Assembly (NCBI GenBank): GCA_001805445.1
Contig: MHGF01000002.1
Location: 1 to 32,317, forward strand
Reading direction: 5' to 3'
DNA: 32,317 nt
Source of the DNA: Omnitrophica WOR_2 bacterium GWF2_43_52
GTDB taxonomy: Bacteria; Omnitrophota; Gorgyraeia; Gygaellales; UBA12090
A model generated the notes under the pieces. That model was given only the letters and a program-made list of their open reading frames with translations. It was not told the origin of the DNA and did no database searches. The translations under genes and the position numbers were made by a program. Shown here one piece after another: positions 11,011-18,351 of the stretch (position 1 is its first letter; the number at the start of each line of letters is the position of its first letter).

Positions 11011-11505
11011 TCATCGTTTCTTTTTTTTAGCTTTCGGCAACTTTTTATAAGCTCCTTTGCCTAAAATCTCCTGAAGCTCCTTCATAAACTGGTTGACATC
11101 CTTAAACTGCCGGTAGACTGAGGCAAAGCGCACGTACGCGACATCATCAATTTCCGCGAGTTTTTCCATAATCAGCTCGCCGACGATTGTTGAGGGAATC
11201 TCCTTCTCATATTTACGCATCACGATACGCTCAATCGAAGTTACCATATCCTCCATTTTTTGCATACTCACCGGCCGTTTCTCACAGGCCTTAATGATAC
11301 CGGATAAAATTTTAGTGCGGTCAAAAGGCTCACGTTGCCCGGCCTTTTTGACAACTAACAGAGGTATCTGTTCAATATATTCATAGGTAGTAAACCGCCG
11401 TTCGCATTTAAGGCATTCACGCCTTCGCCGTATGGAATTACCTCCTGAGCTTGAACGCGAATCAATAACCTTATCTTCTTTATAACCGCAATAGGGGCAT
11501 TTCAT
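11011..11505 (-). CDS. nrdR: Transcriptional repressor NrdR
   Basis: 164 residues. Represses ribonucleotide reductase genes by binding NrdR boxes when (d)ATP is bound. The zinc ribbon has C3, C6, C31 and C34 ([16 protein letters not shown]), and an ATP-cone occupies about 49-139 ([20 protein letters not shown]). The tail is lysine-rich. GGGAGG lies upstream of the start at good spacing. The dCMP deaminase gene is next upstream, a common pairing around dNTP supply. No ribonucleotide reductase is in the window. Confidence 0.96.
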
Positions 11506-11679: not shown

Positions 11680-12189
11680 TTATTTTTGATCTTTATAATT
11701 CACCACCGCATTAGACAATACGGATAATGCTACCTTGGCTTTCTTAAACAAATCCCGGCTTTGTGCCGCGGCATGATATTTACTCTCGCAGACAACCCTT
11801 TTTATTCCGCAGTTTACAATCATTTTAGCGCAGGTAAAACAAGGCTCCATTTTACAATATAATGTAGAGCCTTCTAAAGGTATGCCAAAGCGCGCTGCCT
11901 GGCAAATGGCATTCTGCTCCGCGTGGATTGTCCGTATACAATGCTTGCTCATTGAGCCGTCAGGGGCAACCACATCCCGCATCATATGGCCGGCCTCATC
12001 GCAATGAAGCTGGCCCGCGGGCGACCCCACATAGCCGGTAGCAAGGATTCTTTTATCTTTCACAATCACACAGCCTGCCTTGCCTCTGTCACAGGTTGCC
12101 CTTTTAGCTACTTCCTGAATAATTCCTAAAAAGTATTCATCCCAGCCCGGACGCATATCCTGGCATTTTTTACTTTTTTGCTTTATCAT
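11680..12189 (-). CDS. dCMP deaminase
   Basis: 169 residues. Zinc enzyme converting dCMP to dUMP, the substrate for thymidylate synthase. Zinc site: H89-A-E91 (IHAEQNA) and PC117FTC120. The extra Cys/His loop typical of this family is present (TCDRGKAGC, LHCDEAGH, KHCIRTIHAE). Start has TTGGAG nine bases upstream; a downstream ATG at residue 12 is less likely. It follows glyA after a 274-base repeat-filled gap and precedes nrdR. Confidence 0.93.
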   Translation of the reverse strand: MIKQKSKKCQDMRPGWDEYFLGIIQEVAKRATCDRGKAGCVIVKDKRILATGYVGSPAGQLHCDEAGHMMRDVVAPDGSMSKHCIRTIHAEQNAICQAARFGIPLEGSTLYCKMEPCFTCAKMIVNCGIKRVVCESKYHAAAQSRDLFKKAKVALSVLSNAVVNYKDQK

Positions 12190-12463: not shown

Positions 12464-13708
12464 TTATTTCTTTAGTTGCGCATACAGCGGAAATTCCTTA
12501 GTCAATGCCCGTACCTTTTTCTTTGTTTCCAGGAAAGCCTTTTCTTCTGCCGCCTTTAATACCGTATCTATATATTCAGCAATCAGCTTCATCTGTTTTT
12601 CCTTCATTCCCCGCGTGGTTACCGCGGGCGTACCGATACGTATCCCGCTGGTTAATACGGGAGACTTATCATCGAAAGGAATCAAATTTTTATTCACGGT
12701 AATGCCTGCCTTGTCTAATTTTTCCTGCGCTTCCTTGCCGGTAAGGCCTTTTTCAGATACATCAAGGAGAAACAAATGGTTATCCGTTCCTCCGGAAATC
12801 ACACGATAGCCTTTTTCTTTTAATGCCTCACAAAGCACCCTGGCGTTTTGTATAGTCTGCCGCTGGTCTTTTTTAAATTTAGCGCTCATCGCCTCTTTAA
12901 AGGCAACCGCCTTAGCCGCGACCACATGCATCAGGGGGCCTCCCTGAATCCCGGGAAAAATTTCTAAATCTAATTTTCTGGAAAATTCCTTTTTACATAT
13001 AACAAATCCGCCGCGAGGCCCGCGCAACGTTTTGTGGGTCGTCGAGCTGACAAACTCAGCATACGGCACTGGCGAAGGATGCGCGCCCGCCGCGACCAAT
13101 CCGGCAATATGCGCCATATCCACAAAGAGATATGCGCCGACACTATCGCAAATGCCGCGGAATTTCTTAAAATCAATAATCCTCGGATAGGCCGATGCCC
13201 CTGCCAGAATCAAGCGGGGGCGGTATTCCTTGGCTAAGGTGAGAATCTGGTCATAATCCAACTTTTCGGTCTCACGATGCACGCCGTAACTGACCACCTT
13301 AAAAAACTTGCCTGAGAAATTATGCGGATGGCCGTGAGTAAGGTGGCCTCCGCAGGCAAGGTCTAAGGCCATAATAGTATCGCCTACATTAAGGCAGCTA
13401 AAATAAACCGCCATATTTGCCTGGCTTCCTGAATGCGCCTGGACATTGACATGCTCTGCCTTAAAAAGCTCGGTAGCCCGTTCAATGGCTAAACTCTCTG
13501 CCACATCCACATTTTCACAACCGCCGTACCAACGATGATGGGGATAACCCTCGGCATACTTATTCGTGAGAATTGAGCCCATTGCCTCCAGGACTGCTGG
13601 TGACGTAAAGTTTTCCGAGGCGATTAGTTCCAGGTTCTCTTCCTGTCTTTTTGCCTCATTATGGATAACATTATATATCTGGGGATCAATTTTCTTAAGA
13701 TGCTTCAT
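12464..13708 (-). CDS. glyA: Serine hydroxymethyltransferase
   Basis: 414 residues, normal for bacterial SHMT. PLP enzyme interconverting serine and glycine while charging tetrahydrofolate with one carbon, which feeds purine and thymidylate synthesis. Signatures: [40 protein letters not shown] and the PLP lysine in [15 protein letters not shown]. The start overlaps the rpiB stop (ATGA), so these are co-translated. Confidence 0.98.
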
Positions 13709-14154
13709 TTTCGCTTACCCTCAATCTCCTTTATCTGTTGTACCCTGCGTAAATGCCTGCCGCCTTCAAATTCAGTGTTGAGCCATACGTTTAAAATGCG
13801 TTTGGCAAGAGTTTCCTTCACGAAAACTGAACCTAAGACCAAAAGGTTAGCATCGTTATGCTGGCGAGATAAACGCGCGGCCTTTACGTTATAACATAAT
13901 GCCGCCCGCGCCCCTTTGACTTTATTAGCGGCAATGGAATTGCCGATACCGCTTTTACAAATGAGGATGCCCTTTGAACACCTTCCTGACGATACTTCCT
14001 TGGCGACAGCATAAGCATACGCGGGATAATCGCAGGATTCCTCGCTAAAACATCCCGCGTCTTTTACGGCATATCCTTTTTTCTCTAAATATGCCTTTAA
14101 TTTTTCCTTTAAAGAAAACCCGCCATGATCGCTTCCTATCGCAATATTTTCCAT
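13705..14154 (-). CDS. rpiB: Ribose-5-phosphate isomerase B
   Basis: 149 residues. Interconverts ribose 5-phosphate and ribulose 5-phosphate, supplying PRPP for the purine genes nearby. Motifs: [12 protein letters not shown] (D9/H10), the catalytic C66 in [14 protein letters not shown], and [13 protein letters not shown]. No clear ribosome binding site; it starts six bases after the TsaC-phosphatase stop, so translation is probably coupled. The ywlC-ywlE-rpiB-glyA neighbourhood of Bacillus is a known parallel. Confidence 0.95.
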
Positions 14155-14160
14155 AAGTTT

Positions 14161-15243
14161 CTATAGCAATGTTACTATTTTCTCAATTGCTTCCTTTATC
14201 GTAAAAAAGGTTTTTTCATAATAGTCCATACCCTGCCCAATGGGATCTGGAATATTCACGTTATCAAGCGAGAGCCTGGCAAATTCTTTTAGCAAATACA
14301 CCCTCTTTTCAACATTCGGAGCAAGCTCAACGACCCGCGCCTGCTGCATCGCGTCCATAACTAAAATAAGGTCTGAAGACTTGAGCATTATCCTGTTTAC
14401 CCTCTGAGATCGATACGCCGACAGGTTAACTCCCTCCCGGGAAAGCAAAGCGAGGGTTTCGCTGGTCGGGGCTAAACCATTAAACGCCCCGACACCCGCG
14501 GAAAGCACTTCCACATCAACGCGATTCTTTTCTCTCAAAACCTTGCTTAATAACCCCTGGGCCATCACCGAGCGGCAGGAATTTCCCGTACAGATAAAAA
14601 GCACTCGCTTTGTCTGTGCCGCTTTTTCAAGAAGCTCTTTTGACAACGCGCCTTCCCGCAGAATAACAAAAGGCGTTTTCGTTAAATCTACGACACTCGA
14701 CTCAACGCCTAAGAGTGACGGGCCGCTGTCTATTACTAAATCAATTGTGCCGTCAAAATAGCGTAAAACCTCTTGGGCGCTGCGCGCAGGAAGAGCCTGC
14801 GATGGGTTTGCTGAAGGTAAAGCCACATCCGCCATCGCCATCTCAAGAATATGTAAAGCTACGTTGTGTTTCGGGACGCGTAACCCGATAGTTGTATTTC
14901 TCTGCTCATCGCCTATTGCATGATTAGCTGACTTTAACACCACTGTCAATGGCCCGGGCCAAAACTTATCGGCAAATTTATAGGCGACAACCGGGACATC
15001 TAATGCCACAATTTCCAAAGAGTCTTTGGTTGCAACCGCCACCGTAAAAGGCTTATCCTTAGGGCGGCCTTTAAGCTCATAGAGCCTCGCAAGCGCCTGG
15101 CGGTTATTATAATCCGCGGCTACGCCATACACGGTTTCCGTTGGAATAGCGACTAATTTTCCCTCCCTGATAAAGCGCGCGGCCTTTTCTATCGCTTCAA
15201 AATTAAGGTTATTGGGGTCAACTTTTATAACTTCGGTCCGCAT
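14161..15243 (-). CDS. TsaC/Sua5 threonylcarbamoyl-AMP synthase fused to LMW protein phosphatase
   Basis: 360 residues, two enzymes in one chain. The YrdC-type domain (about 10-200) has IPTETVYGVAADY, LKGRPKDKPF, FWPGPLTVVLK and LPSANPS; it makes threonylcarbamoyl-AMP for tRNA t6A. It lacks the extra C-terminal domain of long Sua5. The low-molecular-weight phosphatase domain (about 211-360) has C218TGNSCR224 (CX5R) and the general acid D333 in IPDPIG, so it looks active on phosphotyrosine or, as in YwlE, phosphoarginine. In Bacillus the two are separate near-neighbours (ywlC, ywlE) beside ywlF/rpiB and glyA, so this fusion keeps that order. Gap to purE is 48 bases. Confidence 0.93.
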   Translation of the reverse strand: MRTEVIKVDPNNLNFEAIEKAARFIREGKLVAIPTETVYGVAADYNNRQALARLYELKGRPKDKPFTVAVATKDSLEIVALDVPVVAYKFADKFWPGPLTVVLKSANHAIGDEQRNTTIGLRVPKHNVALHILEMAMADVALPSANPSQALPARSAQEVLRYFDGTIDLVIDSGPSLLGVESSVVDLTKTPFVILREGALSKELLEKAAQTKRVLFICTGNSCRSVMAQGLLSKVLREKNRVDVEVLSAGVGAFNGLAPTSETLALLSREGVNLSAYRSQRVNRIMLKSSDLILVMDAMQQARVVELAPNVEKRVYLLKEFARLSLDNVNIPDPIGQGMDYYEKTFFTIKEAIEKIVTLL

Positions 15244-15291: not shown

Positions 15292-15780
15292 TTATACATT
15301 CAATTTAATCTCTTTTACCTTATCCGCCAAGTCTTTTTTGTATTTGATTAACTTTTTTTCAATATCGCTGTCCGCGGTTCCCAGAATCTCCAGGGCAAAG
15401 ATTGCCGCGTTTTTCGCTCCGGCCTTGCCAATAGCCATTGCCGCCACAGGCACACCGCCGGGCATCTGCACCGTAGAAAGTAATGAATCTAACCCTTTGA
15501 GGCTTGAAGTCTCTATAGGAACGCCGATAATCGGTAACGTAGTATGCGCGGCAATAACTCCCGCCAGTGCCGCAGCGCCCCCCGCGCCGGCGATAATAGC
15601 CTTTACTCCATTTTTTCTGGCATCTTTGGCAAACTTTGCTACTTCCTCAGGAGTACGATGCGCTGATAAAACCCTCACCTCGTAGTCAGCCTTAAATTCC
15701 TTTAATACATTAACTGCCTCGCTCATGGTCTCTAAATCGGACTGGCTCCCCATTACAATTGCTATTGTGACTTTAGCCAT
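15292..15780 (-). CDS. purE: N5-carboxyaminoimidazole ribonucleotide mutase (class I PurE)
   Basis: 162 residues. Forms CAIR in purine synthesis. Motifs: IVMGSQSDLETM, LSAHRTPEEV (H41), and VQMPGGVPVAAMAIGKAGAKN. The family loop GGAAHLPG reads GGAAALAG here, a variant seen in other bacteria as far as I recall. No purK is in the window, so either it is elsewhere or CAIR forms by non-enzymatic carboxylation. GGGAG precedes the start. Confidence 0.95.
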   Translation of the reverse strand: MAKVTIAIVMGSQSDLETMSEAVNVLKEFKADYEVRVLSAHRTPEEVAKFAKDARKNGVKAIIAGAGGAAALAGVIAAHTTLPIIGVPIETSSLKGLDSLLSTVQMPGGVPVAAMAIGKAGAKNAAIFALEILGTADSDIEKKLIKYKKDLADKVKEIKLNV

Positions 15781-17478: not shown

Positions 17479-18351
17479 CTAACTTCCTTCTTTTTTCGCG
17501 TTCTTAAGCGGCAGTATGCCAGCCATTTCGCCGATGACATTCACCAATTCCGTATTCGCGGGGACAACAATCTTGGCATTATGCTCAAAAGACTTCTCCA
17601 CCATTTCCAGCCGGCGCAGAACCTGGGCATTACCCACAAAGTATTTATCCGCGGCTTCATTTACCAAATGGATTGCCTCAGCCTCACCTTCAGCCTCTAA
17701 AATACGCGCCTGTTTTATGCCTTCGGCCTTTTTTATCTCCGCCCTTTTCTGTCCGTCAGCTACAGTTTCCACGGCAGACGCGAAGTCAATAGCGGAAATC
17801 TTTTCATTCTCCGCTTTGACTACCTTATTCATAGTTTCCTGAACATCCTTAGGAGGGTCAATTTCTTTTAATTCTGTCCTTACAATTTCAATGCCCCAGC
17901 TATTAGTTTCCTCCATCAACACTTTGTGAAGCTCGGAGTTAATCTTTCCTCTTTCGCTGTTGGCGGATTTTAACGTCAGGGTCCCGATAATGTTTCTTAA
18001 CGTTGTGCGCGCCAAATTGACAATCTGGTACTGATAATTAAACACATTATACTGGCAATTCTTGACGCTTTCCTCATCCGCCTTTACTTTAAAATACACC
18101 TGCGCGTCAACCTTGGCATTTAAATTATCGTTGGTGATAATTTCCTGCGGCTCGGCATCCACCATCTGCTCGGTAACATTCACTAAATACATCTTATCAA
18201 TTACCGGTATAAGCCAATGAAACCCGGCTTGCGCGAAACGGTTGTATTTGCCTAATCGTTCAATAAGCCCTCGCTGCGTTGGCCGCACAATCCTAATACC
18301 AGAAAAAAATATCACCACTGCCACAATGACTAATAAAAATACTATGTTCAT
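17479..18351 (-). CDS. SPFH/band-7 membrane protein (stomatin/QmcA type)
   Basis: 290 residues. One N-terminal membrane helix (about 2-20, IVFLLVIVAVVIFFSGI), then the band-7 domain (VRPTQRGLIERLGKYNRFAQAGFHWLIPVID ... TLRNIIGTLTL), and an alanine/glutamate-rich helical tail (KRAEIKKAEGIKQARILEAEGEAEAI). Such proteins form large membrane rings and act with proteases or in membrane organisation. No NfeD-type partner is next to it. GGAG with good spacing precedes the ATG. It lies between purM-side genes and purD. Confidence 0.93.
   Translation of the reverse strand: MNIVFLLVIVAVVIFFSGIRIVRPTQRGLIERLGKYNRFAQAGFHWLIPVIDKMYLVNVTEQMVDAEPQEIITNDNLNAKVDAQVYFKVKADEESVKNCQYNVFNYQYQIVNLARTTLRNIIGTLTLKSANSERGKINSELHKVLMEETNSWGIEIVRTELKEIDPPKDVQETMNKVVKAENEKISAIDFASAVETVADGQKRAEIKKAEGIKQARILEAEGEAEAIHLVNEAADKYFVGNAQVLRRLEMVEKSFEHNAKIVVPANTELVNVIGEMAGILPLKNAKKEGS

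Follow-up and report, generated by a model that had tools for sequence, protein, structure and literature searches.

The gene considered here lies on the minus strand of a 32,317-nucleotide stretch of an Omnitrophota genome (contig MHGF01000002.1; the whole stretch is called the window below). It joins in one polypeptide a TsaC/YrdC-type L-threonylcarbamoyladenylate synthase and a low-molecular-weight (LMW) phosphatase resembling YwlE (Table 1). The frame opens with an ATG at 15243 and runs for 360 codons, with no internal stop, to a stop codon ending at 14161; the plus-strand frame across the same interval is riddled with stops. A reading made from the letters alone (the sequence-only reading) had proposed a t6A synthase fused to an LMW phosphatase, and the single open reading frame with both Pfam domains over their cut-offs bears this out. 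That reading had also named a gene-calling error over a missed stop as what could undo the fusion; an error of gene calling or assembly is rejected here, given the finding of the same fusion again in many genomes. The N-terminal half matches TIGR00057, the equivalog model of L-threonylcarbamoyladenylate synthase, at 178 bits against a cut-off of 123 (NCBIfam). By Pfam and alignment it lacks the C-terminal SUA5 domain of the Sua5 long form, the phosphatase domain starting after a linker of only about 15 residues.

Table 1. Features of the fusion gene and its neighbours, in window coordinates
Feature	Position	Strand	Evidence and remarks
Fusion gene, TsaC/YrdC-type L-threonylcarbamoyladenylate synthase + LMW (YwlE-like) phosphatase, 360 aa	14161..15243	-	ORF, Pfam, NCBIfam, alignment, structure model
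TsaC/YrdC domain, residues 24-198	14650..15174	-	Pfam Sua5_yciO_yrdC PF01300, E=1.8e-49, 168 bits vs cut-off 25
LMW phosphatase domain, residues 214-355	14179..14604	-	Pfam LMWPc PF01451, E=2.7e-29, 103 bits vs cut-off 23
P-loop CTGNSCRS, residues 218-225	14569..14592	-	Sequence, alignment; residue 222 (PX5 position) is Ser
General-acid Asp-Pro, D333-P334, within IPDPIG	14242..14247	-	Sequence, alignment
rpiB, ribose-5-phosphate isomerase B	13705..14154	-	ORF, Pfam, NCBIfam; 6-bp gap after the fusion
glyA, serine hydroxymethyltransferase	12464..13708	-	ORF, Pfam, NCBIfam; 4-bp overlap with rpiB
Deoxycytidylate-deaminase-like gene, ComEB-like	11680..12189	-	ORF, Pfam, NCBIfam; under ComEB cut-off
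nrdR-like repressor	11011..11505	-	ORF, Pfam
purE, directly upstream of the fusion	15292..15780	-	ORF, Pfam

The claim that both active sites are intact also held. The alignment took in 27 of the 42 fusions in which both motifs were read. In all 27, the phosphatase residues C218, R224, S225 and D333-P334 are invariant, as are PTETVYG (34-40), K58, R122 and S144 of the TsaC half, which we take to line the TsaC substrate site. The C-terminal half thus carries both marks of the LMW-PTP superfamily, the C(X)5R(S/T) loop and the DP general acid. A structure model of the protein (pLDDT 93.4, pTM 0.88) found as its first LMW phosphatases (LMWPs) in the PDB the entry 4egs and then YwlE (4etn and 4pic), this fold matching failing to separate YwlE from Wzb.

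Along the minus strand the genes follow one another as purM-like (named by eye), a 149-aa ORF, an SPFH gene, purD, purE, the fusion, rpiB, glyA, the deoxycytidylate-deaminase-like gene and nrdR. The proposed order ywlC-ywlE-rpiB-glyA is therefore present, with the first two genes as one. Its Bacillus-type counterpart, separate near-neighbours in the same order, was found as described in Mesobacillus, where sua5 is followed by 722 bp, an LMWP with the loop CTGNTCRS, rpiB and glyA. The SPFH/Band 7 protein gene (17479-18351) sits within the run of purine genes.

Arginine-phosphorylation genes in the same genome

A profile search of the genome that holds the window (94% complete) found one LMWPc match and one PF01300 match, both of them the fusion gene. 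An McsB-like kinase, for which the sequence-only reading had proposed a search, is present as the single PF00217 match (E=6e-67), and it passes the NCBIfam model 'protein arginine kinase' at 449 bits against a cut-off of 385. It belongs to an mcsA-mcsB-clpC set: an McsA-like gene (165 bits, under the cut-off of 210) precedes it, and clpC starts about 285 bp past it on the same contig. The ClpC carries two GTEH motifs, which presumably bind phosphoarginine (pArg).

Distribution of the fusion and of McsB

Across 285 genomes of the window's phylum, profile searches found LMWPc in 279, PF01300 in 273 and PF00217 (McsB) in 274. With an ORF length of at least 300 codons as a proxy for fusion, the LMWPc match lay in a frame of that length in 167 of the 231 phylum genomes checked. 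These comprised 151 genomes (150 among the matches listed plus the window's own; 112 of fused length) and 80 more (55 of fused length) drawn from the 128 remaining, with 48 LMWPc-positive genomes left out of the count; both motifs were read within one ORF in 42 loci. Unfused adjacent neighbours occur in the same phylum, as in G273, where about 40 bp separate the two genes. Weak LMWPc matches were also seen inside giant frames of 5590, 9541 and 6607 codons (G056:C164:4123-4518, G147:C3:22571-22861 and G181:C79:2789-3241, respectively).

In a scan of named genomes, with the best 80 kept, at least 23 loci had both domains in one ORF. Judged by record title, short-form fusions made up 19 of them (7 from Omnitrophota, 1 from Aerophobetes and 11 from Planctomycetota), and the remaining four, all from Firmicutes, had a full-length Sua5 ahead of the phosphatase. 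An rpiB homologue comes directly after the fusion in 18 of the 19 short-form loci, L131 being the exception. Downstream glyA and nrdR accompany all seven Omnitrophota fusions. None of the 11 Planctomycetota loci showed a glyA, and some of these stop soon after the fusion. The TsaC-LMWP fusion is a widespread architecture that is not confined to one phylum, and it consists of two known enzymes in joint form. Titles and abstracts of the open-licence PMC literature yielded no paper on it; domain-architecture databases may well list it. In a separate case an actinobacterial LMWP with the pTyr-type loop CMGNICRS stands beside Sua5-like ORFs (L177:5986-6579), in a genome with no McsB match.

The same PF00217 search found McsB in 187 of 199 Planctomycetota-group genomes, and together with the phylum count this suggests that McsB is near-universal in Omnitrophota-like and Planctomycetota genomes. 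As to the search itself, a control genome labelled Bacillus subtilis gave no PF00217 or Clp_N match although the species has McsB and ClpC, which may mean that this control is incomplete, and PF00217 matches were obtained in Mesobacillus and Pontibacillus. The 11 phylum genomes with no McsB match are 56 to 98% complete, and their incompleteness means that gaps may explain many of these absences. A real loss is possible in the case of G202 and G264, two genomes of one genus in neither of which McsB was found. An intact fused phosphatase with no detected McsB occurs in four Omnitrophota-like genomes (G202, G233, G237 and G235, the last at locus L010). The Planctomycetota-group genomes G386, G434, G494 and G521 likewise combine a fusion retaining Cys, Arg and DP with no detected McsB, and at L139 and L148 the P-loop is intact and McsB was not found. 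Conversely, McsB was found with no LMWPc match in six of 54 McsB-positive Planctomycetota-group genomes and in four of the phylum (G079, G023, G042 and G058), these four also having no PF01300 match. In G079 and G023 (96% and 99% complete), both absences would be accounted for if the assembly had a gap where the fusion lies.

In the 49 genomes of the named set, McsB was found in 21 of the 23 with the fusion (19 of 19 for the short form) and in 8 of the 26 without it, made up of 6 of the 12 that have both genes unfused at one locus and 2 of the remaining 14 (fused versus rest, Fisher p=2e-5). This association is weak as independent evidence, because most of the fused genomes come from two groups in which McsB is near-universal. 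Within the Planctomycetota group a tie between fusion and McsB is not evident: frames of fused length were found in 39 of 54 McsB-positive and 6 of 12 McsB-negative genomes, no clear difference, with two of the six not being fusions. Four other McsB-less genomes of this group (G337, G361, G439 and G445) have as their best LMWP one with the pTyr-type loop CxGNICRS, and none of their LMWPc matches falls in an ORF of 300 or more codons.

The selectivity position of the P-loop

In YwlE and in S. aureus PtpB, according to the consulted part of PMC8001253, Thr at position 5 of the P-loop gives a preference for pArg and Ile a preference for pTyr. The window's protein has Ser where YwlE has Thr, which keeps the hydroxyl. 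The top-scoring loci of the phylum scans include 43 fused ORFs (the 42 with both motifs read plus L018, which is cut at its 5' end), in which this position is Ser in 38, Thr in 5 and Ile in none. In the 23 named fusions, a set found partly by a pattern requiring Ser or Thr there, it is Thr in 15, Ser in 6 and unreadable in 2. Ser at position 5 is not diagnostic, since it is common in ArsC-like LMWPs: 19 of 20 secondary LMWPs of this kind in the phylum have it too. These 20 secondary loci were considered as rival pArg erasers and rejected, a DP beyond residue 90 being absent from 18 of them and present in L246 and L248. Five of them were scanned in NCBIfam, where the best model was arsC, in all cases under its cut-off.

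Kinase and phosphatase motifs in Lachnospiraceae

At seven loci of the named-genome scan (L155, L158, L159, L162, L168, L188 and L195) the LMWP beside or fused to Sua5 has a broken P-loop or has lost the acid, and the genomes concerned have either no McsB or an McsB with altered motifs. In a survey of 120 Lachnospiraceae genomes, made with a joint McsB and LMWP profile, 62 LMWP loci were fetched: 14 strong ones from McsB-positive genomes, and 48 from 47 genomes without McsB (G564 gave two). The state of McsB was scored on NEED, the Cys of CPTN and the Glu of GEG, which we take to be its catalytic residues. A canonical P-loop, CxGN(S/T)CR, was present at 5 of 6 loci with intact McsB motifs, at none of 8 with altered McsB and at 1 of 48 with no McsB found (Fisher p=5e-6, kinship not corrected). 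One genome, G541 (NEEEH), was scored intact by hand, and the strict rule gives 4 of 5, 1 of 9 and 1 of 48; the states of McsB and phosphatase are mismatched in G573. A looser test on Cys, Arg and Asp only was passed by 5 of 6, none of 8 and 6 of 48 loci, respectively.

These counts leave out 17 of the 31 McsB-matching genomes, which had no strong Sua5-type LMWP (E under about 3e-24); 16 of the 17 have an McsB locus, altered in every case, and G555 has none. Also left out were G535 (no McsB, weaker LMWP) and all weaker second matches. Absence of McsB here means absence in one profile search of draft genomes; the profile combined four sequences joined together, of which two came from altered pairs. 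The broken loops vary by genome, the Cys being replaced by Ser, Asp, Ala, Gly or Glu and the Arg by Leu, Gly, Met, Ala, Gln and others. A quick, poorly resolved tree of 53 Sua5 loci requires the canonical state to have changed at least 7 times, and the McsB state likewise at least 7 times. An independent-pairs test of joint loss on the Lachnospiraceae tree gave a median p of 1, with too few supported pairs to have any power. The LMWP fold itself is near or fused to Sua5 in 60 of the 62 loci, 53 having the genes apart within about 3 kb and 7 having them fused; Sua5 was not in view at L332, which is cut by the contig end, and at L336.

The matching motif states of McsB and the Sua5-linked phosphatase strengthen the arginine-phosphatase reading, and with it the earlier suggestion that the phosphatase half of the window's protein is possibly an arginine phosphatase. 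No report of such matching decay was found among titles and abstracts of the open-licence PMC literature. Several of the loci deserve mention in their own right. Those at L288-L327 and L329-L350 include putative pseudophosphatases, the P-loop being non-canonical in 56 of the 62. McsB relatives with altered catalytic motifs (NEEDH to NGDDH; CPTN to FPTN or YPTN) were seen at L231, L232 and L258-L287, 25 of the 30 loci in the last range being altered by the script's rule, and the altered McsB relatives of Lachnospiraceae are apparently pseudokinases. An McsB relative in Clostridium cibarium (L222, in the genome of L190) has NEEDN, SPSN and LES at the catalytic motifs.

Discussion

TsaC makes threonylcarbamoyl-AMP, which TsaD and its partners place on tRNA. 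The best reading of the gene would be a two-enzyme protein made of TsaC and a YwlE-type arginine phosphatase, and we consider it rather likely that this is a pArg phosphatase tethered to the t6A machinery to protect TsaD. No second TsaC-type enzyme was found in the genome, and the N-terminal half would make threonylcarbamoyl-AMP in the first step of t6A synthesis. Nor was a second LMW-PTP-type phosphatase found; the C-terminal half would most likely strip McsB-made phosphoarginine from proteins, and this removal would spare them from ClpC-ClpP. Through the fusion the eraser probably stays close to the t6A machinery, in a position from which it could protect TsaD at the hand-over from TsaC, and the tether might match t6A output to the signals of protein quality control. 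Three points are inferred: that pArg is the substrate, that TsaD is the client and that the tether brings a benefit. The boldest step is that fusion to TsaC may bring the eraser to TsaD at the moment of hand-over.

The link to TsaD comes from Bacillus, in which the two enzymes are separate. In B. subtilis, as reported in the consulted part of PMC7546277, TsaD is phosphorylated on R282, degraded via McsB and ClpCP and stabilised by YwlE, and TsaD R282K is stabilised as well; neither ywlC nor tsaC occurs in the main text of that paper. In B. subtilis TsaD, R282 presumably falls in the motif GGVAANRGLR. The equivalent Arg is kept in all five PDB alignments shown, so its conservation need not relate to McsB. 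One Omnitrophota stretch examined for TsaD holds a 224-aa SGGHT ORF without a GG(V/S)AAN motif. Most of what is known of protein arginine phosphorylation comes from Gram-positive bacteria. Our results suggest that in Omnitrophota-like and Planctomycetota genomes the t6A enzyme often carries the likely pArg eraser within its own chain. Together with the report on YwlE and TsaD stability in Bacillus, they make it directly testable whether tRNA t6A and protein quality control are linked.

The substrate of the phosphatase half can be read in other ways. If it were an ordinary LMW protein-tyrosine phosphatase whose fusion to TsaC is incidental to its substrate, one would look for Ile at the selectivity position, by the rule in the consulted part of PMC8001253, and none of the 43 fused ORFs has it. 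Nor does this reading sit well with the near-universal McsB of the phylum, with the four McsB-less Planctomycetota-group genomes that carry a CxGNICRS enzyme instead, or with the decay that matches McsB in Lachnospiraceae. The family is named for pTyr, however, the fused enzyme is intact in some genomes without McsB, fold matching cannot tell YwlE from Wzb, and the Wzb model does match, at 54 bits, far under its cut-off of 243; on balance we regard a pTyr enzyme as unlikely. We think it very improbable that the C-terminal half is a thioredoxin-type arsenate reductase sharing the CTGNSCRS loop, even though the identical loop string occurs in many ArsC relatives of these genomes. The arsC models match at 46 bits, far under the cut-off of 174, the DP general acid is invariant in 27 of 27 fusions, and the only two cysteines of the domain (218 and 223) both lie within the P-loop, whereas an ArsC of this type presumably requires further redox cysteines. 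The ArsC identity was rejected on the score and the cysteines.

A different doubt concerns the tether and is compatible with an arginine phosphatase: the fusion might be a by-product of an old, tightly packed operon, with no tie between t6A and pArg. The genes are close but unfused in many genomes, including most of the Lachnospiraceae loci and, within the window's own phylum, G273, and from such closeness fusion needs only the loss of a stop. Against a mere by-product stand at least 6 changes between fused and apart among 53 Firmicutes loci, as counted on a tree with weak resolution, besides the short Omnitrophota/Planctomycetota fusion, and the keeping of the fold near Sua5 in nearly all the Lachnospiraceae loci though the P-loop is mostly non-canonical. 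The link between YwlE and TsaD described in the consulted part of PMC7546277 points the same way. We take the by-product to be a serious possibility, if not the outcome we would expect.

An additional role, independent of catalysis, is suggested by the persistence of broken phosphatase folds close to Sua5. We raise tentatively, and with more doubt than belief, the idea that the t6A synthase has a permanent partner in the LMW phosphatase fold, whose function would persist after catalysis is lost. Where McsB is present, the fold would erase pArg at the t6A complex. In many Lachnospiraceae, in which the kinase is missing or disarmed and the phosphatase disarmed too, it would stay beside or fused to Sua5 as a pseudophosphatase, probably regulating or scaffolding that enzyme. 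Were this true, translation would be tied to ClpC-based quality control in McsB-positive lineages. The Lachnospiraceae pseudo-enzymes offer a natural experiment on the link between t6A and quality control.

Among known systems, the nearest is that of Bacillus YwlC (Sua5) and YwlE, in which the same two enzymes stand in the same order ahead of rpiB and glyA (as in Mesobacillus) and McsB is present in the genome. There the genes are separate and the host is Gram-positive; in the window there is one polypeptide in an Omnitrophota host, with the short TsaC form, no Sua5 C-terminal domain, and Ser instead of Thr at P-loop position 5. Fusions of the same Sua5-LMWP order in one ORF occur in Fermentithermobacillaceae and in Lachnospiraceae-like genomes (L163, L184, L155 and L158), but these are 510-542 aa long with a full-length Sua5, and their Lachnospiraceae P-loops are mostly non-canonical. 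TsaN (PDB 8ide), by its entry title a TsaD-TsaC-SUA5-TcdA modular enzyme, also has a TsaC domain fused to other t6A-pathway domains, and differs in that its title names no phosphatase domain. The first LMWP in the PDB by both fold and sequence is the LMW phosphatase of Thermoanaerobacter tengcongensis (4egs), deposited as RpiB; the record name suggests a link to RpiB, not to TsaC, and we take this protein to be part of an LMWP-RpiB fusion.
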